Shown: positions 5,132 to 15,057 of the stretch, one piece after another
Layout of the letters: every line of letters begins with the position of its first letter
Position numbering within the stretch: position 1 is the first letter of the stretch
Source: Rhodanobacter sp. L36
Lineage (GTDB): Bacteria; Pseudomonadota; Gammaproteobacteria; Xanthomonadales; Rhodanobacteraceae
Length of the DNA stretch: 64,000 nucleotides
Assembly: GCF_009765755.1 (NCBI RefSeq)
Contig: NZ_LMUV01000002.1
Span: forward strand, 910,578-974,577
Reading direction: 5' to 3'
Position numbers and translations under genes: made by a program
The notes under the pieces: model-generated
Told to the model about the DNA's origin: nothing
The model's input: only the letters and a program-made list of their open reading frames with translations
Databases searched by the model: none

Positions 5132-6859
5132 ATGACATTGGCAAATCACAAGACCCTGCTGTTGAGCGGCCTGCTGCTGCTCGGCCTGAGTGCCGCGGCG
5201 ATCACCGTCCAGGCGATCTGGCGACCGCTGGCGCCGCATGCGCACGTCGCCGCGCAACTGGCCGACATCGATCTCGCGCAACCGGATGCATTGATCCGCT
5301 CCGAGCGACTCTCGGCATTGCCGCGCGATCTGCTGCGCGTGCCGTTGCTGCACGAAGTGCTCAGCGAGGATTTCGTCAGCTACTACGAATTCAACGAAGG
5401 CCGCCTGTCGCTGTCCGGCACGCTGCGCCGCATCGCCTACGAACACCAACTGGATCTCGGCGACGAAGTGATTCGCCAAGCGCTCGATGCGCCGGCGGAA
5501 GTGGCGTTGTGGCACGGCGATCACGGCAAGCTTCAATACTGGTTGCTGCTCGGCCAGCGCAACGGGCTCACTCGACTGCTGCAAGGCATCGCGAACGTCG
5601 CGCTCGACGACAGCCAGCTGAAAAACGTCGGCAAGCTCGAGGTCGATGGCGACAAGGTCGCGCTTTATGCGCTGGCTTATGGTTATCAGCGCAACCTGCT
5701 GTTTGCCGTGCATGGCGATCGGCTGGTGGTGCTGTCCGATCCGGGCATGCTGTTGAACGAGAACGGCACGCTCGACGACGAGCGCAGCGAACAGATCATC
5801 GCGCTGCTCGATGGAAGCTCGAAGAAACCCGCATGGCCGGACAGCGCGCTCGCGAAGGACAGCGATAACCCGCGCCTCGACAAGATCAAGGGTCATCAAC
5901 TGAGCGTGTCCGCGCACTTCCTGTCGTTCGGTTACCAGCCGTTTTTCCCCGGCATCGAAGCGCTGCGTTTCGATTTTTCCGCCGACGCCGAGCATGCGTG
6001 GGATACGCGCGCGCTGGTCAATCCGGCTTTGCTGCCGGAGCAGTGGAACAGCGCGTCGCTATGGCAGGTGTTGCCGACCGATCCCGCCGCATGCGTCAGC
6101 CTGCCGGTGGACTGGGCATCCGCCGGCCACGTGCTGGACGCGGTGATGGGCAAGGACGCGGCGGGAATCGTGCTGCCGGCTTTTTCGGGACCGGCGGCGA
6201 TTTGCTGGTACGGCAAGTCGAGGTTGTCGTCGCCGCTGTTCGTCGCGCGATTCGACAAGCCTGAACTCGTCGCGTCGATGAAGCCATCGCTGGAAAAAGC
6301 GTTCACCCAGATCATCGGTGCGTACGAGGAAAAGGCCGGCAATGCCGATGGCCGTCTGCCGGTGACATCGCATCAAGGTGTTGGCGACAGCACCGAATGG
6401 CAACGCGATGTCAGTGCGCGCTACGGTTCGGCGGATGCCACCGAAGCGAAGCTCACCGATACGATTTCATCGGACCGCTACTTTCCGGTGACGCTCGCGG
6501 TGGCGCACGGCTACGTGGTGTTTTCGCCGGACGGCGCATTGGTCGACGATGCGCTGGCGGTGCTGGAAAAACGCTGGCCGGCCGTGGCCGACAGCATGGG
6601 CAACGCGAGCCGCGAGCATGTCGTCGCACAGCTGACGCCGGCCAGCATGGCGAAGCTGATCGAGCAGGAATCGTTCGCCAGCCTGCCGCAGGATCAGGAG
6701 CCGGTGTTCCGCAACGCAGCCACGCAATTCCTGATACCGAAGCTGCATGCGCTGGGTGCATATCCGGCATTGACCTTGCGCCTGCCGGACACATTGCCGA
6801 CGCAACGCGGATGGATTGCGGTGCAGTGGCAATCGGCCGCCGTGGGCTCGGCGCACTGA
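5132..6859 (+). CDS. yfaA: DUF2138 protein, first gene of the alpha-2-macroglobulin operon
   Basis: A 575-residue envelope protein with an N-terminal hydrophobic segment (about residues 8-28) that is a signal anchor or signal peptide; the rest is predicted outside the cytoplasm. Sequence and position match DUF2138/YfaA, the first gene of the E. coli yfaA-T-S-Q-P order. The family function is unknown. In Pseudomonas the corresponding mag operon encodes membrane-associated partners of the macroglobulin MagD. I see no catalytic motif; stretches such as LSAHFLSFGYQPFFPG and LPDTLPTQRGWIAVQW look structural. The next gene starts about 14-50 bases after the stop, consistent with one transcript. Confidence 0.85.
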   Translation: MTLANHKTLLLSGLLLLGLSAAAITVQAIWRPLAPHAHVAAQLADIDLAQPDALIRSERLSALPRDLLRVPLLHEVLSEDFVSYYEFNEGRLSLSGTLRRIAYEHQLDLGDEVIRQALDAPAEVALWHGDHGKLQYWLLLGQRNGLTRLLQGIANVALDDSQLKNVGKLEVDGDKVALYALAYGYQRNLLFAVHGDRLVVLSDPGMLLNENGTLDDERSEQIIALLDGSSKKPAWPDSALAKDSDNPRLDKIKGHQLSVSAHFLSFGYQPFFPGIEALRFDFSADAEHAWDTRALVNPALLPEQWNSASLWQVLPTDPAACVSLPVDWASAGHVLDAVMGKDAAGIVLPAFSGPAAICWYGKSRLSSPLFVARFDKPELVASMKPSLEKAFTQIIGAYEEKAGNADGRLPVTSHQGVGDSTEWQRDVSARYGSADATEAKLTDTISSDRYFPVTLAVAHGYVVFSPDGALVDDALAVLEKRWPAVADSMGNASREHVVAQLTPASMAKLIEQESFASLPQDQEPVFRNAATQFLIPKLHALGAYPALTLRLPDTLPTQRGWIAVQWQSAAVGSAH

Positions 6860-6909
6860 AGCTGGCCGCAACCATGCAGCCCTCTTTTCAACATCCTTCC
6901 GCGATATCG

Positions 6910-7587
6910 ATGCCCGCACGACGTCGCCGATATCGCGCGCCTCACGCGTGGCTCGGCGCGCTGCTGATGCTGCTCGGTGTGTGCATGCCGCTGCGCGCAC
7001 CCGCGACAACCAATGTCGCGGCGCAACTCACGCCCGCGCAATCGCAGGTGTTCCGCGCGTGGTTCGTGCGCGTGATCAACGAGCAGTTGCGGCAGGGCCC
7101 GACGCCGCGCTGGGTGCATCGCGATTGCGCAGGCCTCGTGCGCTTCGCGGTGAACGAGGCGTTCAAGCATCACGACGCGCACTGGCTGCGCGCCAACGGC
7201 ATCGATGCCGATCGTCTGCCGCCCGAACTGGAATTGCGCGCCGATCAACGCTCGCTGGGCAACGCGTGGACCACGGTGGATGGACGCAGCAGCGCGTTTG
7301 TCACGGCGCTGGCGCTGATCCAGGCCAACAGCGAATTCGTCTCGCGCGACATCAACCAGGCGCGCATTGGCGACCTGCTTTTTTTCGATCAGGGCGACGA
7401 CCAGCACTTGATGGTGTGGATGGATCGCTACATCGCGTATCACACCGGCACCAGCAGCAAACACGACAACGGATTGCGCGCGGTCACCGTGCAGCAACTG
7501 CTGCAGTGGCCCGATCCGCGCTGGCAACCGAGTGCGGACAATCCGAATTTCATTGGCGTCTTCAAGCTCGGCTTTCTCTCGCGATGA
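6910..7587 (+). CDS. yfaT: DUF1175 protein with NlpC/P60-like Cys/His signature
   Basis: A 225-residue secreted protein with an Arg-rich n-region and hydrophobic core (PARRRRYRAPHAWLGALLML) ending near APA. The mature part resembles DUF1175/YfaT. It also carries three landmarks of NlpC/P60 cell-wall amidases in the right order: DCAGLV with Cys73, GDLLFF, and QHLMVWM with His166, followed by IAYHTG. I infer a papain-like peptidase fold that could cleave peptidoglycan stem peptides; this is not proven. The start is uncertain: ATG at 6874 would add 12 residues before the Arg cluster. The stop overlaps the ATG at 7584 (ATGA), indicating translational coupling to the macroglobulin gene. Confidence 0.82.
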   Translation: MPARRRRYRAPHAWLGALLMLLGVCMPLRAPATTNVAAQLTPAQSQVFRAWFVRVINEQLRQGPTPRWVHRDCAGLVRFAVNEAFKHHDAHWLRANGIDADRLPPELELRADQRSLGNAWTTVDGRSSAFVTALALIQANSEFVSRDINQARIGDLLFFDQGDDQHLMVWMDRYIAYHTGTSSKHDNGLRAVTVQQLLQWPDPRWQPSADNPNFIGVFKLGFLSR

Positions 7588-7622
7588 ACCACGCACGACC
7601 GAATCCATCAGGGATGTTCACC

Positions 7623-10600
7623 ATGCAACGCTTGCCTCCATTGCTGTCGCGCTTCGCCTGCGCCGCCGTGTGCACTTTCGCGCTCGGGTCGGTTGTCCAT
7701 GCCCGCGAAAACGCCACCTTGTCGGCGACCACGCCGAGCGACTACGCGACCTTCAAGGGTCAGCCGTTCTTCCTGCTCACCGACAGCAGCTACGGCAGCG
7801 ACGAAGTGGCGAAGGTGCGGCTGGAAGCGCCCGGCGGCGATGCGGATGCATTGAAGCCTTACGGTGGCGCGGACATCCTGCTCTATCGCATCCCGCAGCC
7901 GCTGGCGTTTCTGAAGGGACAGAAAAATCTTCATCGGGTCGAAGTACATCCGAACTATCGCGGTGAAGGACTCGCCAACACGCTGTCGTATCTGTGGGAC
8001 AGCTGGTATCAGCAGACGCGCCGCTCGTGGCAGCGCATTCTTTCGACCGACACGCGCAAGCAGGCCATCGCGCAGGCGCCGCAGTTGAAGATCGGCGCGG
8101 CGCTGACCAAACCGACCCGCTTCGAGCAGAACCCGCAGTTCGAGCCGCTCAAGGGATACGACCTGGTCGATCGCTTCCGTTATCCGCTGTGGAGCGCCAA
8201 GCCGATCGAGCCGCCCAAGGGCGTGCAGATGGAAGGTTCAAGTTCCGACTTCCTTTCGCCCAATAGCGGCAATCTGATGATCCCGGTCGGCAAGCTCAAG
8301 CCCGGCCTGTATCTGGTGGAAGCGGTGATCGGCGCCTATCGTGCCAACACCTTGCTGTTCGTCACCGACACCGTGGCGATCACCAAGAGCACCCACGACG
8401 GCATGCTCGTTTGGACGGCCAATCGCAAGCAGGGCGTGCCGGTGCCATCGGCGACATTGCAGTGGACCGATGGTCTTGGCGTGCTGAAGAGCGGGCAGAC
8501 CGGCACCGACGGCGTGTTGCAACTCGATCACGCGAGCCCGGAGCGCAGCTACCTGATCGGCGAAGACGCCGGCGGCGGCGTGTTCATCTCCGAGAACTTC
8601 TATTACGACAGCGAGATCTATAACGCCAAGCTTTACGCCGTTACCGATCGGCCGCTGTATCGGCCGGGCGACGACGTGCACGTCAAGTTTGTCGGGCGTG
8701 ATTTCAAGAACGCCACAGACTCCACGCCTGTGGCCAGCGGCGCCATCGCGCTGGACGTGCTCGATCCGAACGGCTCGCCGGTCGCGCACAGCGCGCTCAC
8801 GATGTCGTCCGACACCGGCGCGGATACCAGCTTCACCCTGCCCGCCAATGCCAGTGCGGGCGGTTACACCTTGCGCTTCACGTACGGCGGCAGCACCTAC
8901 GGCGGCGCCTTTCGCGTGGCCGAATACATCAAGCCGCATTTCGATATCGCGCTGGTGATGGACAAGCCCGACTACGGCACCGGCGAAGCGCTCGAAGGCA
9001 AGATTCGCTTGAGTTATCCGGACGGCCGTCCGGTCGGCAACGCGCATGTGTCGGTGAGCGTGCGCGCGCAGCAGGTCACCATGGTCGAAGGCGAGCTGCG
9101 CTATGCCGGCCTGTTTCCGGTCAAGCTCGACCAGCAGGAACTGGTCGCCGACAACGACGGCAGCGTGCCGTTGAAATTGCCGCCGGCGAAAGACCCCAGC
9201 CGCTATGTGGTCACCGTGCTGGCAAGTGATGGCGCGGCGTATCGCGTGCGCATCACGCGCGAATTGCTGGTGGCCCGCGGCGTCATGCCGTACACGCTGA
9301 GCACGTCGAGCCAGTTCACCCAGCCCGGCGCGAAAACCGATTTCGTGCTGGCTGCGCAAGCGTTGCCGTCCGCACTCAACAGCACCGGCACGCCGATCGT
9401 CGTGCCTGCGCAGATTCCCGCGCACTGGGAATTGACGCGACTGGAGGATCAGAGCAAGCAGAGCGGCGATCTCGCCGCCGCAACGCCGGGCGCGCCGATC
9501 ACTTTCCCGGTCACGTTTCCGCAGCCGGGTTCGTACACGCTGTCGGTCAAGGATCAACACGGCAACCTACTCGCAGCGACCAGTCACTGGGTCGCCGGCA
9601 ACGGCATCACCGCGACGCCGGGAAGCGTGCAAATCGTGCTCGATCGCGCGCATTACGCCATTGGCGACACGGCTGAAGCGTTGATCACTTTTCCGCAGCC
9701 GGTAGGCAATGCGCTGCTGACGCTGGAGCGCGACAAGGTGGAAGAGCATGCGCTGCTGGGCAGCGGCGCGGACTGGCTCAGCCTGAGCAAAGTGTCCGAT
9801 ACGCAGTGGCGCGCGCGCATTCGTATCGCCGCCAACTTCAGTCCCAACATGACGTTTTCGGTGCTGTACGTGAAGGATGGCGATTACGCTTTCCAGAACG
9901 CCGGCATCTCCGTGGCGCAACCGCAGATTGCGCTGGCAGTGAAGAGCGACAAGCCGGTCTACGCGCCGGGCGACACCGTGCAGCTGGATCTGGACAGTCA
10001 GCTCGCCGGCAAACCGGCGTCGGCGAATCTCACGGTCAGCGTGGTCGACGAAATGGTCTACGTGCTGCAGCCGGAGATCGCGCCGAACATCGTGGACTTT
10101 TTCTATCACCCACGTCGCAACAGCGTGCGCACCACATCGAGCCTCAACTTCATCAGCTACGACATGGCGTTGTCGTCGCTGCCCGGCGCGCCGGAACAAG
10201 GCCGCTACAACGAGCGCGGCGTGAAGGTGCTGGAGCGTCCGCGCCGCGACGAAAAAGACACCGCGGCGTGGGTCGCCACTCTCAAGACCGACGCGGCCGG
10301 TCACGCGCACATGAGTTTCGTGATGCCCGATTCGCTCACGCGCTGGCGCATCACCGTGCGTGCCACCACCGCTGAAGGCGTGGTCGGACAGACCACCGCC
10401 AACGTGCGCTCGGACAAACCGCTGTATCTGAAATGGACCGGCCCGACGCATTTCCGCAGTGGCGACAAACCGCGCCTGGACATGGTCGCCTTCAACCAGG
10501 GTGCGCAGGATGTCGAAGCGCAGCTGCAAGTCGACGGCGCGGGTTTGGCCGTCCATCAGACAGTCAAGCTCAAGCGCGGGCCGAACGTGCTGACCTTGCC

Positions 10601-12350
10601 GGTGGATGCGTTGAGCGCCGGTTCGGTGACGGCGCAACTGCTGCAGAACGACAAGCCGGTCGATCGCCTGCAAACCACCGTGGTGATGGAGCCGCTCGAC
10701 TGGTTGTCGCAGCAGCAACTCAACCTGCCGCTGACTGCCGGTGCATCCATGTTGCCGTTGACGCTGCCGGCCGACGCCAGCGACGTGCGCCTGCGTTTCG
10801 TCGACAGCGCGATCAGCCAGTTCGCCCGCGTGGCCGATGATCTGGTGGACTATCCGTATGGCTGCGTCGAACAGACGTCCAGCCGTCTGATTCCGCTGGC
10901 GCTGGCCTTGACCAGTTACGCGCAAAACGGCACCACGGCCGCTGGTGGACGCGACACCACGCAAGGCATCGATGCATTGCTGCGCACGCAGCGCCAACGG
11001 CTTGCGCTGCTCGCCGGCGAAGGCGGCGTGTTCGGCTGGTGGGGCGATGGCAGCGGCGGCAATCCGTTCCTCACCACGTACGCCTACTACGCGGACTGGC
11101 TGGCCAGTCGCAGCATCGGTCTGGAACTGCCGGCGGACAACTGGAAACAGATGCTGGAGTCGTACAAGAACAGTGCCGACGAACCGCTGCTGCATCGCGT
11201 GCTCGAACTTTACTGGAGCCATCAGATGGGCCTGCCGGTGCAGACCCAGCTCGACGGCCTCACCGACAACCTCGCCACCGCCGATGCCAAACCGGAAACG
11301 CTCGCCGACGAGGACAGCCTGATTTTCGCGGCGCCGGATTCCAGCGAAGGACATCAGGTTGCACTCGTGCTTGCCGCGCAGTTGTATCGCGAGATCAACC
11401 AGCCATTGCCCGGCAAGCTGGTCGCCGAAATCGACGCGGCGAAGCAGGCATTGGCGAGCAGCCACTCGCCGTTCGTGCAGAGCCTGCTGCTGCTCGGCCA
11501 GGGCAATACCAACCCCGGTCAGACTGGCGCGTTGCTCGCGCGGGTCAGCGCCGACATGCCGACGATGGAACGCGCGATCGCGTTGACGTGGTTGCAGAAA
11601 GCACTCGGCGGCGCACCGGGAAGTGCTGCCCCGACCAACGCACCGAGCGCGATCGGTGCCGGTCAGTGGCAGGCCATCGATAGTCCCACCGGTCAGCGCG
11701 AGTGGCACTGGAGTGGAAATACCGCGCCGAGCACATTGGCCTTGGCGGCTGCGTCGGCCGCGTCGGGCGACAACACGCCGGTGGCGGTCATCAGCTATCA
11801 GAGCCGCGCGAAGCAAGGCACGCAGTTGCCGATCACCCTGCAACGCAAGCTCTACAAACTGGTTGCGCAGGCAACGGCGACCAACAGCAGCGGCGATGTC
11901 GAAGCGGGCGATCAGGGCCGCACGTACGCCGCGGAAGAAGTGCCTGTCGGCAGCGCGCTGGAAGCCAACACCCTGTACGTCGACGAAGTCATGCTCACGC
12001 CGGACAAGAAAGGCAGCTATCGCTACGGCCTGCTCGAAGTGCCGTTGCCGCCGGGTGGCGATGTCGAAGCGAGCACATGGGGACTGACGATCACCGGTCT
12101 GAGTGGCGCGGGCGATGACGCCCGCCTGCAGCGCGCGCCGGTACGCCAGGTGCAGCACGAAATGGGCGAGATGTCGTATCGCCAGCCGGTCGCATCGCTG
12201 GATCATCCACAGGTCTATCGCCAGCTGGTGCGCTTCTCGCTGCCGGGCACGTTTTCGTTGCCGCCGGCGCGTTACTTCCGCATGTACCAGCCCCAAGCCA
12301 AGGCCTTGCAGGACGACGGCAAGAAAAACTTCACGATGGTGGTGAAGTGA
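7623..12350 (+). CDS. yfaS: Bacterial alpha-2-macroglobulin (MagD/YfaS type)
   Basis: A 1,575-residue periplasmic protein. The signal peptide is QRLPPLLSRFACAAVCTFAL followed by VVHA, without a lipobox, so it is soluble like MagD rather than a lipoprotein like YfhM. It has tandem macroglobulin-type beta domains, including the MG2-like LYRPGDDVHVK and VYAPGDTVQLDLDSQ, a TARWRITVRATTAEG-like segment (here SLTRWRITVRATTAEG), and an intact thioester motif CVEQ at residues 1081-1084 in PYGCVEQTSS. The thioester traps proteases covalently after bait cleavage. It is full length (family about 1,500), unlike the broken yfaS of many E. coli strains. Start: ATG 7623 follows AGGGA; ATG 7584, overlapping the yfaT stop, is an alternative adding 13 residues. 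Confidence 0.93.
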   Translation: MQRLPPLLSRFACAAVCTFALGSVVHARENATLSATTPSDYATFKGQPFFLLTDSSYGSDEVAKVRLEAPGGDADALKPYGGADILLYRIPQPLAFLKGQKNLHRVEVHPNYRGEGLANTLSYLWDSWYQQTRRSWQRILSTDTRKQAIAQAPQLKIGAALTKPTRFEQNPQFEPLKGYDLVDRFRYPLWSAKPIEPPKGVQMEGSSSDFLSPNSGNLMIPVGKLKPGLYLVEAVIGAYRANTLLFVTDTVAITKSTHDGMLVWTANRKQGVPVPSATLQWTDGLGVLKSGQTGTDGVLQLDHASPERSYLIGEDAGGGVFISENFYYDSEIYNAKLYAVTDRPLYRPGDDVHVKFVGRDFKNATDSTPVASGAIALDVLDPNGSPVAHSALTMSSDTGADTSFTLPANASAGGYTLRFTYGGSTYGGAFRVAEYIKPHFDIALVMDKPDYGTGEALEGKIRLSYPDGRPVGNAHVSVSVRAQQVTMVEGELRYAGLFPVKLDQQELVADNDGSVPLKLPPAKDPSRYVVTVLASDGAAYRVRITRELLVARGVMPYTLSTSSQFTQPGAKTDFVLAAQALPSALNSTGTPIVVPAQIPAHWELTRLEDQSKQSGDLAAATPGAPITFPVTFPQPGSYTLSVKDQHGNLLAATSHWVAGNGITATPGSVQIVLDRAHYAIGDTAEALITFPQPVGNALLTLERDKVEEHALLGSGADWLSLSKVSDTQWRARIRIAANFSPNMTFSVLYVKDGDYAFQNAGISVAQPQIALAVKSDKPVYAPGDTVQLDLDSQLAGKPASANLTVSVVDEMVYVLQPEIAPNIVDFFYHPRRNSVRTTSSLNFISYDMALSSLPGAPEQGRYNERGVKVLERPRRDEKDTAAWVATLKTDAAGHAHMSFVMPDSLTRWRITVRATTAEGVVGQTTANVRSDKPLYLKWTGPTHFRSGDKPRLDMVAFNQGAQDVEAQLQVDGAGLAVHQTVKLKRGPNVLTLPVDALSAGSVTAQLLQNDKPVDRLQTTVVMEPLDWLSQQQLNLPLTAGASMLPLTLPADASDVRLRFVDSAISQFARVADDLVDYPYGCVEQTSSRLIPLALALTSYAQNGTTAAGGRDTTQGIDALLRTQRQRLALLAGEGGVFGWWGDGSGGNPFLTTYAYYADWLASRSIGLELPADNWKQMLESYKNSADEPLLHRVLELYWSHQMGLPVQTQLDGLTDNLATADAKPETLADEDSLIFAAPDSSEGHQVALVLAAQLYREINQPLPGKLVAEIDAAKQALASSHSPFVQSLLLLGQGNTNPGQTGALLARVSADMPTMERAIALTWLQKALGGAPGSAAPTNAPSAIGAGQWQAIDSPTGQREWHWSGNTAPSTLALAAASAASGDNTPVAVISYQSRAKQGTQLPITLQRKLYKLVAQATATNSSGDVEAGDQGRTYAAEEVPVGSALEANTLYVDEVMLTPDKKGSYRYGLLEVPLPPGGDVEASTWGLTITGLSGAGDDARLQRAPVRQVQHEMGEMSYRQPVASLDHPQVYRQLVRFSLPGTFSLPPARYFRMYQPQAKALQDDGKKNFTMVVK

Positions 12351-12371: not shown

Positions 12372-14153
12372 ATGAATCAGCGTCGGCCATGGCATGCACT
12401 TGCCGCTGCGGCATTCGCATGGCTCGCGATCGGTTCGCCGGTTGCGAGTGCGGAGTATTCGGCGCCGCTGCAGTTTGCGTGGCAACCGCGCGGTACCGAT
12501 GCTCAGTTGTGGCATCTGGACGATCGCCCACTTGATGCCAGCACAGCGCGGCCATTGCCGGCCGATCTGGATACACCGCTCGGCAGCGTGTGGAAACTTT
12601 TCGTCTACAGCTACCTGGTCGATCGCCGCATGCATTCAGACGATTACCATTGCGGTGACGATCATTCATCGCTGACGACTGTGGAGCGCAAGCGCATCGG
12701 CGACGAGGAAATCTATTGCTGCCACGCCGGCGGGCGCATCGATCGCGAACGCGCGCTGGTGCAATCGTGCGGACTGTATTTCGAGCCGCAACGACTGCAG
12801 CTCGATACCACAGTCTGGCGCGACTACTGGCGCAAGCGACACGCGCCGCTGTGGCTGCAATCGCTGGCGCAGATCAAATCCACCACGCGCGTATCCGTCG
12901 CCGATCTGCTGGCCGCGTTGCGCAGCGTTCCCGAAGACGCGCGCACCGAAGCCGAACACACGCTGATCTCGGTGATCACCCTGGGTCGCGGCGAAGGCAC
13001 GCTCGCCGACTACGGCAGCCTGCTGCGCGCCAAGACGTGGACGATGCCCGATCCGCTACGCCGCGGTGCGTCGCTCGGCGGCGCCGCGGGATGGCTCGCC
13101 GACGGCACGCCGATATGGATGTCCGGCCCGGGCAGCAGCAACCGCGTGCTGGCGGCTGCGGCGAGCCATTTGCATCCGTTGTTGCAAACCGTTCCGGTCG
13201 CCGACAGCGACGCCTGCGTCGTGGTCGATTATTTCGATCGTTATCCGATCCACCACGTGCTGCCCGCGCAAGGTCATCAGCCTGTGCGCGATGGCGCGCT
13301 CAATGGCCGGTTTCGCGTCGAGTTCGTCAACGGTCACTGGATCGACATTGAAAGCCATGGCGAGATGCAATTGCGTGGCGCCGCAGGTGACCCGCATCTC
13401 AGCGCGCGGCTGGGCCTCAACGATTACATCGCGCGCGTCGTGGAGCGCGAGGGCGATGCCAGCGAAAGCGCAGCCGCCGAAGCGCTGGCCGTGGCCGCGC
13501 GCAGCTATCTCGTGCAGCAGGCATCGCTCGATCGCGGTTGCTGGCACATCGCCGATGCCAGCCGCACGCAACGCGTCGCCGCGCATCCGCCGAGCGCAGC
13601 AGCACGGCAGGTTGCAGCATGGACCGACACGCTGATTCTCACCGACGTCAGCGTGCAATATCACGGCACGTTGCCGGGCAAAGATCGCATGGCGTGGCGG
13701 GATGCGGTGCAGTTGTCGAAGCAGGGACTTTCGTTCGACGCGATTCTCGCGCGCAGCTGGCCGGGCGCGACGCTCACGTCGCTGATGAGTCCGCTCGGCG
13801 GCGATTGTCAGCCGATCGCGTTGGCGCAATCGTGGCTGCAGCACCAGACACCGCAATGGCAGCAGCGTCTGCGCGACGAACCCGGATACGAAACACCCGC
13901 GATTCCCGCGGTATGCCAGCTGCGCGAAGGTCGGCCTTATGCCGATGCGCGACGCAATCGACTGTACGTGAGTGGTCTGTCCAGTGAGGAAGATCGCATC
14001 GCGCTCGCGCACGAATACCTGCACCTCGCCTTCGCGCATCATCCGCGCGGAGAGGACGAGGTTTTCATCGAGCAGCAGGCACGGCGGTTGTTGCGCACGC
14101 CCGTCGCGTTGCCCGATGCCGTGCCGGACGAACACCAGGGAAACACGCCATGA
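12372..14153 (+). CDS. yfaQ: YfaQ/DUF2300 protein: PBP-like, SpoIID-like and HExxH modules
   Basis: A 593-residue secreted protein with signal peptide 1-27 (VASA/E). Residues 60-250 read like the transpeptidase fold of penicillin-binding proteins: S72-V-W-K75 (SxxK), ALVQSCGLYF with S132-C-G134 in the SxN place, and K221-T-W-T224 in the KTG place, followed by GGAAGWLADGTPIW. Residues about 349-468 resemble SpoIID/LytB: LNDYIARVV, EALAVAARSYLV, then GLSFDAILARSWPGATL. Near the C-terminus H547-E-Y-L-H551 is a zinc-peptidase-like HExxH. The family is annotated only as DUF2300, so the module reading is mine. It lies between the macroglobulin and yfaP genes on the same strand, 21 bases after the former. 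Whether the PBP-like site is active is open, since Gly and Trp replace usual residues. Confidence 0.85.
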   Translation: MNQRRPWHALAAAAFAWLAIGSPVASAEYSAPLQFAWQPRGTDAQLWHLDDRPLDASTARPLPADLDTPLGSVWKLFVYSYLVDRRMHSDDYHCGDDHSSLTTVERKRIGDEEIYCCHAGGRIDRERALVQSCGLYFEPQRLQLDTTVWRDYWRKRHAPLWLQSLAQIKSTTRVSVADLLAALRSVPEDARTEAEHTLISVITLGRGEGTLADYGSLLRAKTWTMPDPLRRGASLGGAAGWLADGTPIWMSGPGSSNRVLAAAASHLHPLLQTVPVADSDACVVVDYFDRYPIHHVLPAQGHQPVRDGALNGRFRVEFVNGHWIDIESHGEMQLRGAAGDPHLSARLGLNDYIARVVEREGDASESAAAEALAVAARSYLVQQASLDRGCWHIADASRTQRVAAHPPSAAARQVAAWTDTLILTDVSVQYHGTLPGKDRMAWRDAVQLSKQGLSFDAILARSWPGATLTSLMSPLGGDCQPIALAQSWLQHQTPQWQQRLRDEPGYETPAIPAVCQLREGRPYADARRNRLYVSGLSSEEDRIALAHEYLHLAFAHHPRGEDEVFIEQQARRLLRTPVALPDAVPDEHQGNTP

Positions 14154-14238: not shown

Positions 14239-15057
14239 ATGACTGCAGGATCCCTCAAGTTTGCCTGTGTTGCCTTCGTACTCGGGGCGAGTATGGGTGG
14301 CCCGGCATGGGCTCAACAGGCCCCGACGCAGCCCGACGAGAAAATAGAATTCAGCGCGCCGATCAATGGCTGGCGCTCGTCGGCCGGCGACGAGTCGCGC
14401 TACACGCAGGAGGTTCATTACCCCGCGGTCGCGGTGAACACGCCCGAAGGACAGGCGGCCAGCGCGATGATCGCCGGCGAAATCCGCCACGCGCCCAAGG
14501 GAACCGCCAGCGCTGCCGACCAACCCGCGACGCTGATCGTCAACGGCGTTGCGATGCCGCAGCGAGTCGAGAGCGATGGTCATTTCTCGCGCCCGTATGC
14601 TTTCGGATCGGGCAGCAACAGTGTGGAAATGATCAGCGCCGACGGCACGCGCCAGCGCACGCAGTTCTACGAAGGCTACAGCGGCAAAACCAGGCCGCGG
14701 CTGCGCGTGCTGCTTTCGTGGGACAGCGACGGCACCGATCTCGATCTGCACGTGGTGTCGCCGGACGGCCAGCATGCGTTCTACGGCAATCGCGTGGTGC
14801 CCAACGGCGGCGCCCTCGACGTGGATGTCACGACGGGCTACGGGCCGGAGATCTATTCCAACCCGTCACCACCGAGCGGCACCTATCTGGTCTACGTGAA
14901 CTATTACGGCAGCGGCGAAAACCACCAGCTATTGACCGTGGCGCAAGTGGCGATCGTGACCGACGAGGGCACGCCCAACGAGAAACAGCAGACGTTCATC
15001 GTGCCGATGCGCAAGGCCGGCGAGCTCACGCTGGTGAAATCGTTCGTGATGCCCTGA
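14239..15057 (+). CDS. yfaP: DUF2135 (YfaP) secreted protein, last gene of the macroglobulin operon
   Basis: A 272-residue secreted protein with signal peptide ending AWA/QQ (about residue 25). The C-terminal half carries the DUF2135 signature: LRVLLSWDSDGTDLDLHVV, SPDGQHAFYGN, a tyrosine-rich loop and GTYLVYVNYYGSG, which looks like an all-beta sandwich with an acidic, possibly calcium-binding, loop. Function unknown; in Pseudomonas the last mag gene product associates with MagD. The gene starts 85 bases after yfaQ and is followed directly by a bidirectional terminator, which marks the operon end. ATG 14239 was chosen over 14209 because it gives a clean signal peptide. Confidence 0.87.
   Translation: MTAGSLKFACVAFVLGASMGGPAWAQQAPTQPDEKIEFSAPINGWRSSAGDESRYTQEVHYPAVAVNTPEGQAASAMIAGEIRHAPKGTASAADQPATLIVNGVAMPQRVESDGHFSRPYAFGSGSNSVEMISADGTRQRTQFYEGYSGKTRPRLRVLLSWDSDGTDLDLHVVSPDGQHAFYGNRVVPNGGALDVDVTTGYGPEIYSNPSPPSGTYLVYVNYYGSGENHQLLTVAQVAIVTDEGTPNEKQQTFIVPMRKAGELTLVKSFVMP

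Follow-up and report, generated by a model that had tools for sequence, protein, structure and literature searches.

YfaQ of Rhodanobacter sp. L36, a 593-residue DUF2300 protein encoded on the + strand at positions 12372–14153 of the 64,000-nucleotide stretch of contig NZ_LMUV01000002.1 analyzed here (the window), is the protein called MagE in the mag operon of Pseudomonas, and is composed of a signal-like N-terminus, a module resembling penicillin-binding proteins (PBPs), a SpoIID-like module and a C-terminal gluzincin-like domain with an HExxH motif. This architecture is firm; its conservation, the position of the gene in the operon and the identity with MagE are shown by the data below. The interpretation that we find best, and hold tentatively, is that the HExxH domain is a protease serving the macroglobulin at the cell wall. 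The zinc-peptidase domain would then be the functional core, whose substrate for cleavage or maturation would be the partner macroglobulin or some other envelope protein that serves it. Peptidoglycan would be bound, and perhaps cut, by the SpoIID-like and PBP-like parts, and such a wall tether would let the protease act on site, most probably at points of wall damage. Zinc binding, proteolysis, the substrate and wall binding are what we infer in this proposal.

The open reading frame scores 170.2 bits against PF10062 (E 2.7e-50; Pfam cut-off 25), which places its product in the DUF2300/YfaQ family. The frame and the motifs SVWK (residues 72–75), SCG (132–134), KTWT (221–224) and HEYLH (547–551) lie exactly where an earlier note, made from the sequence alone, had located them. 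Judged by eye, residues 1–27 (12372–12452, +) form a Sec-type signal sequence with RR, a hydrophobic run and ASA, and residues 1–26 have pLDDT values below 50 in the AF2 model of the whole protein (40-row alignment; mean pLDDT 87.5, pTM 0.80). All eight cysteines are invariant across 91 full-length relatives, which fits an oxidized, exported protein. PF10062 matches two regions, residues ~112–223 and ~438–558; an internal duplication was considered, but the mutual profile probability is 0.8% and we rejected it. The Pfam DUF2300 model seems to mix two unrelated regions of one protein.

Relatives were collected by scanning contigs with the patterns WKL[FY]VY[AS][WY] and EE[VI]YCC[HQS][AV], so that K75 and its surroundings are partly selected for. 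The scan gave 261 pattern matches and 224 confirmed relatives, of which the best 80, the nearest relatives of YfaQ, were used; together with the E. coli copy, the Citrobacter copy, eight copies from a whole-protein search and the protein of the window they make up the 91 rows, which form 27 clusters at 80% identity (between-cluster identity median 45%, least 35%). The stand-alone HExxH forms described below and a P. aeruginosa-like locus (L114) were left out of this alignment. Invariant in 91/91 are S72, K75, S132, C133, K221, T222, E360, R377, H431, H547, E548, H551, E563 and E567; the residues on which the earlier note had staked its case (S72, K75, K221, H547 and E548) hold throughout. The eight whole-protein-search relatives are independent of the motif patterns, and in 8/8 of them eleven checked invariant residues, including S72, K75, S132, K221, H547, E548 and H551, are kept. 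Altogether 81 of the 593 columns are invariant, these seven positions included, and the chance that seven random positions would all be invariant is about 7e-7. Over 5000 shuffles of YfaQ, an HExxH arises in 4%, the PBP-like motif order in 1.3% and an HExxH followed by ExxxE in 0.1%; the motifs alone therefore prove little, and conservation was gathered for this reason.

The first module, similar to PBPs and class D beta-lactamases, comprises residues ~28–276 (12453–13199, +). In VIA-align comparisons of the AF2 model, class B PBPs rank first and class D beta-lactamases next; the four best rows reach Z about 15 over 214–224 residues, as for PBP5fm (6g88; Z 15.1, rmsd 3.6, 214 residues). The PDB matches listed by Foldseek consist almost entirely of class A beta-lactamases and include PBP3, and the best for the whole model has E 3.7e-5, target TM 0.50 and rmsd 6.9. 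As modeled, residues ~28–276 carry the fold of the PBP/serine beta-lactamase group. Sequence comparisons are not significant: when a YfaQ profile was compared with the five PBPs examined from this genome, the probability was 0.3% and E 0.21, although the alignment still paired GSxxK with GSxxK and ALxxSCG with ALxxSSN; NCBIfam pbp2 gave E 0.25, and a single-sequence PDB search with YfaQ found no match up to E 10. The case for PBP kinship thus rests on the fold.

The motifs of this module are conserved but altered. SVWK (S72–K75; 12585–12596, +) is SxxK-like, with the Ser and Lys present in 91/91. The place of SxN is taken by SCG (residues 132–134; 12765–12773, +), where Ser and Cys are invariant and the third residue is Gly in 88 and Ala in 3 relatives, and that of KTG by KTW (residues 221–223; 13032–13040, +), where invariant Lys and Thr are followed by Trp in 87, Tyr in 3 and Phe in 1. 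In PBPs, the Asn of SxN and the Gly of KTG matter for substrate binding. Since the third residue of both motifs is altered in all 91 relatives, the active site is a changed one rather than that of a plain transpeptidase, and by its motifs the module is not a canonical PBP. The PBP module read from these motifs in the earlier note therefore stands as to the fold (Z about 15) and SxxK, but not as to SxN and KTG, which are SCG or SCA and KT(W/Y/F) in 91/91.

Residues ~300–470 (13269–13781, +) form a compact SpoIID-like module. PF08486 (SpoIID) matches residues 346–401 with 26.1 bits, above its cut-off of 23, whereas NCBIfam SpoIID_LytB gives only 19.8 bits against a cut-off of 83.3. A profile of 41 relatives searched against the PDB matched 4rwr at E 0.001, and 5i1t and 5txu at E about 0.04. 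We take 4rwr to be the SpoIID of B. anthracis, and 5i1t and 5txu that of C. difficile. In the alignment to 5txu_A, the last Glu of YvarvlerE sits at chain residue 101, which pairs E360 of YfaQ (13449–13451, +; 91/91) with E101 of C. difficile SpoIID. According to PMC6221140, E101 is the proposed catalytic residue, the E101A protein is inactive on peptidoglycan and leaves sporulation unrestored, and the substrate is glycan stripped of peptides. Being aligned with E101, E360 is the likely catalytic acid of the SpoIID-like module. The order is retained in a further stretch that aligns with a score below 0, the middle of SpoIID being missing, and the zinc ligands C140/H145 of C. difficile SpoIID lie outside the stretch aligned to YfaQ. 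YfaQ thus resembles the SpoIID lytic transglycosylase in having the catalytic Glu in register, but differs in the stretch between the parts (about 40 residues, compared with about 165 in B. anthracis SpoIID) and in having no tie to sporulation. The SpoIID plan proposed in the earlier note is upheld by the Pfam score and the pairing of E360, and of the structures that it named for comparison, PBPs were matched by fold (Foldseek and VIA-align) and SpoIID by profile, the rows listed for the whole model being taken up by PBPs and beta-lactamases.

The C-terminal domain, residues ~477–576 (13800–14099, +), contains the invariant residues C479, C515, H547, E548, H551, E563 and E567. HEYLH (547–551; 14010–14024, +) is followed by E563 and E567 (ExxxE; 14058–14072, +), both present in 91/91 and in 7/7 stand-alone relatives. 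A separate AF2 model (117 residues, 13-row alignment, pLDDT 90.3) shows a helix, three short strands, the HExxH helix and a helix starting at ExxxE; in the whole-protein model, HExxH lies on the helix 539–553, as in an active-site helix, and the next helix is 563–575. H547, H551 and E563 would be the zinc ligands, with E567 probably in the second shell. Foldseek returned no row at E 0.001 with this domain; the best were selecase (E 0.017, TM about 0.4), IrrE, abylysin, PprI and Wss1. VIA-align placed abylysin first (4jiu; Z 7.0, rmsd 3.6, 81 residues), then Wss1 (6.5), jannalysin (6.4), NleC (6.3) and BlaR1 (6.3, 87 residues), every row being below Z 8, a level attainable by unrelated folds or a common arrangement. 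Nearly all of the leading matches are presumably HExxH zinc peptidases. In a PDB profile search with the domain, selecase was not significant (E 0.17); angiogenin rows above it (best E 0.062) are short and weak, and were set aside as chance. The zinc peptidase site suggested earlier has an invariant HExxH/ExxxE and a model with pLDDT 90 in its favor, and structural matches that are modest (Z max 7.0).

In PMC6925264 the third ligand of minigluzincins is given as a His, and in MecR1, whose motif is HE205LSH, E245 and D249 are put forward as ligands; “gluzincin-like” is therefore a safer term than “minigluzincin”. The YfaQ domain may share the small HExxH zincin fold of the minigluzincins abylysin, jannalysin and selecase, with a sequence match that is not significant, but differs from them by its two invariant cysteines, the signal-like N-terminus and the fused wall modules.

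In the window, the gene order is that of a mag-type operon, all on the + strand: DUF2138 (YfaA/MagB-like; 5132–6859) and, downstream of it, DUF1175 (YfaT/MagC-like and NlpC/P60-related, the NLPC_P60 score of 19.4 bits being below the cut-off of 23; 6910–7587), an alpha-2-macroglobulin (YfaS/MagD-like, with the thioester motif YPYGCVEQ; 7584–12350, start uncertain), MagE and DUF2135 (YfaP/MagF-like; 14239–15057), the DUF2138 and DUF2135 genes being assigned by Pfam. In all 82 full-length loci the ORF directly upstream of the YfaQ gene fits the macroglobulin profile; DUF1175 is present in 77 and DUF2138 in 76. By the rule applied, DUF2135 lies directly downstream in 74/82, and six of the other eight have an overlapping DUF2135 ORF; in L059 and L063 no DUF2135 was found downstream. 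The fusion of PBP-like, SpoIID-like and HExxH parts within a macroglobulin operon, as the earlier note had it, is thus supported by folds, Pfam, conservation and neighbors.

We then asked which part of the protein goes with the operon. A whole-protein search of a phylum sample matched 15 of 398 genomes, nine with a full-length protein (the window included) and six with a short HExxH protein alone, and a profile of the HExxH domain found the same 15. Since the operons had first been found via YfaQ itself, DUF2138 and DUF1175 were searched independently in the same 398 genomes; each occurs in 15, and these are the same 15 genomes. The PBP-like and SpoIID-like parts are present in nine of them. 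A class sample, in which 4/369 genomes matched, two below the cut-off only (sub-cut-off PF10062 matches: G064 and G320), added a further stand-alone form, G068. In all seven stand-alone loci (the six and G068) the HExxH gene directly precedes DUF2135, and in five, that is, in all whose contig extends that far, it follows the macroglobulin gene; the stretch also contains DUF1175 in five and DUF2138 in four, contig ends having truncated the rest. At E 0.01, the stretches of these seven loci gave no match to the PBP-like or the SpoIID-like part. The stand-alone proteins are small, have signal-like N-termini (by eye) and keep HExxH and ExxxE in 7/7.

The presence of the HExxH domain in 15/15 partner-bearing genomes, and of the wall parts in 9/15, points to the HExxH domain as the constant part, a protease core to which wall modules are secondary; in the favored interpretation these modules were added in one lineage. 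The “wall-remodelling enzyme” of the earlier note is, on these data, a conjecture. In a macroglobulin tree of 38 sequences, five of them with the stand-alone form (rapid inference under LG+G4, with warnings on some long branches), a single branch divides fused from stand-alone with 100% SH-aLRT; if the tree is rooted, by assumption, on the other-class rows, G068 falls immediately outside the fused group, consistent with a single fusion event. The distribution suggests that this bacterial macroglobulin system has a protease as a fixed component, in addition to the protease trap.

In the mag operon (magA–F), magE and magF come after the gene of the macroglobulin MagD (PMC5764988). Of 25 genomes from the genus to which G415 belongs, taken here as Pseudomonas, one contains the published magE primer. 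Its locus, L114, bears four of ten published mag primers, and the magE slot there holds a three-module protein (PBP-like match 1e-110, SpoIID-like 6e-77, HExxH 6e-49) that begins signal-like, by eye, when read from a GTG start. YfaQ and P. aeruginosa MagE thus share the gene order and, in a primer-bearing locus, the three modules; the window differs in having a single DUF2135 match at E 0.01, and hence no magA-like first gene as in the six-gene form. The E. coli orthologue (40% identity) was described in 2025 as a bipartite protein with a PBP-like N-terminus and a SpoIID-like C-terminus (mSystems, PMC12282094), whereas we find three modules; the words “HExxH”, “metallo”, “macroglobulin” and “MagE” do not occur in the main text of that paper. 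The PBP-like and SpoIID-like halves of the fusion that the earlier note called unusual were therefore already known, and the HExxH module goes beyond that main text. In the three main texts and the part of the literature searched, neither the HExxH module, its stand-alone forms nor the identity of YfaQ with MagE was found; to that extent, new here are this identity and the coincidence of DUF2138, DUF1175 and the HExxH domain in the same genomes, fused in nine and alone in six. This joins two literatures, on E. coli yfaQ and on Pseudomonas magE, each of which leaves the gene name of the other unmentioned in the main texts examined.

Loss of magE disturbs MagD, altering its amount and forms, according to PMC5764988; a 100 kDa form is reported lost in ΔmagB and, by a figure legend, in ΔmagC, not clearly so in ΔmagE, and MagE and MagD gave no stable complex on gel filtration. 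Because the HExxH domain is constant, the macroglobulin is its constant neighbor and loss of the gene affects the macroglobulin, a protease that matures or serves the macroglobulin would be the simplest reading. A second set of data comes from type VI secretion (T6SS), where magD protects against VgrG3 and, in a limited way, against Tae1, not against TseH, and is dispensable against B. thailandensis; that work concerned magD rather than magE, and the mechanism of protection “remains to be elucidated” in its words (PMC12663445). A wall-tethered protease would account both for the disturbance of MagD upon magE loss and for magD aiding survival of wall-cutting T6SS effectors. Against it, the literature examined reports neither proteolysis nor zinc nor an activity on the wall for any family member. 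The need of MagE for normal MagD, and the protection by the mag operon against these effectors, can now both be approached through single residues.

Nearly as good, and with a substantial though lesser chance of being right, is a reading that has every module acting on the wall. Such a peptidoglycan enzyme would have three heads, with glycan strands cut by the SpoIID-like part, peptide cross-links by the HExxH domain, and stem peptides trimmed or rejoined by the PBP-like part, the macroglobulin being a mere neighbor in a repair operon. The invariant SxxK, S132, K221 and SpoIID Glu suggest that the PBP and SpoIID parts are catalytic too, which fits this enzyme as well. So does the likeness of E. 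coli ΔyfaQ to wall-hydrolase mutants: the cells have an increased width and cluster with mutants of the wall and envelope, and the profile correlates with those of ΔmepS and ΔmepK among others (PMC12282094). The NlpC/P60-related DUF1175 in the operon, below cut-off as it is, and the protection by magD against some wall-targeting effectors (PMC12663445) are also in line with wall chemistry. Weighing against the three-headed enzyme are the altered SxN and KTG of all 91 relatives, the persistence of the HExxH domain without wall modules while the operon partners are unchanged, and the fact that MagD itself is disturbed in ΔmagE (PMC5764988).

We consider it rather unlikely that the PBP-like and SpoIID-like parts are non-catalytic wall binders and the whole protein a chaperone or scaffold of the macroglobulin. 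The aromatic residue at the third position of KTG and the Gly or Ala at that of SxN are consistent with such a role, and the changed amount and forms of MagD in ΔmagE led the authors of PMC5764988 to propose a chaperone, but the 91/91 invariance of HExxH and ExxxE, SxxK and the SpoIID Glu exceeds what a scaffold needs. Less probable again is a soluble periplasmic counterpart of BlaR1/MecR1, in which peptidoglycan fragments laid bare by cutting of the wall would occupy or acylate the PBP-like part, the SpoIID-like part would hold stripped glycan, and the gluzincin would be switched on to activate the macroglobulin; if true, YfaQ would be a wall-damage sensor arming a bacterial “complement-like” protein. 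BlaR1/MecR1 likewise pair a gluzincin (HExxH and ExxxD) with a sensor domain acylated by beta-lactams (PMC6925264), but are membrane proteins with the opposite domain order and no SpoIID part, and sense beta-lactams. Finally, the proposal of 2018 that MagE is a cytoplasmic factor for MagD signal-peptide processing, drawn from earlier work that placed MagE in the cytoplasm and from complex data, both cited in PMC5764988, is very improbable in view of the signal-like N-termini (by eye) of the window, stand-alone and P. aeruginosa-like (GTG start) proteins, the eight invariant cysteines and the prediction of an SP-I site in the E. coli protein (PMC12282094).

PBP1c is a glycosyltransferase/transpeptidase and differs in architecture from YfaQ. 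The Type I macroglobulin accompanied by PBP1c resembles the present system in that a macroglobulin gene lies beside the gene of a PBP-fold protein (PMC5764988). The same text describes mag-type operon macroglobulins, P. aeruginosa MagD included, as lacking CXEQ; in contrast, the window macroglobulin keeps the thioester motif YPYGCVEQ, unlike a Type II protein, and GCxEQ is found in 46/89 macroglobulins >1200 aa from mag-type operons, L114 having GGVEQ. The Type I/II split of macroglobulins by operon does not hold here. DUF1175 is listed as inactive in PMC10318531, against which C75 and H168 (numbering from base 6904), the NlpC/P60-like Cys and His, are invariant in 86/86 relatives. The magA-like gene of L114 (15612–16568), located before DUF2138, matches the DUF2135 (MagF) profile, and MagA and MagF look like paralogues by sequence; in L111 (6947–8624), a tandem pair of DUF2135 ORFs lies 3' of the YfaQ gene. 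A Citrobacter portucalensis plasmid of mobilizable type carries the five-gene operon of L008. In an E. coli record (L007, 4287–8931), the macroglobulin match extends over three separate ORFs and the gene looks broken, with yfaQ open.
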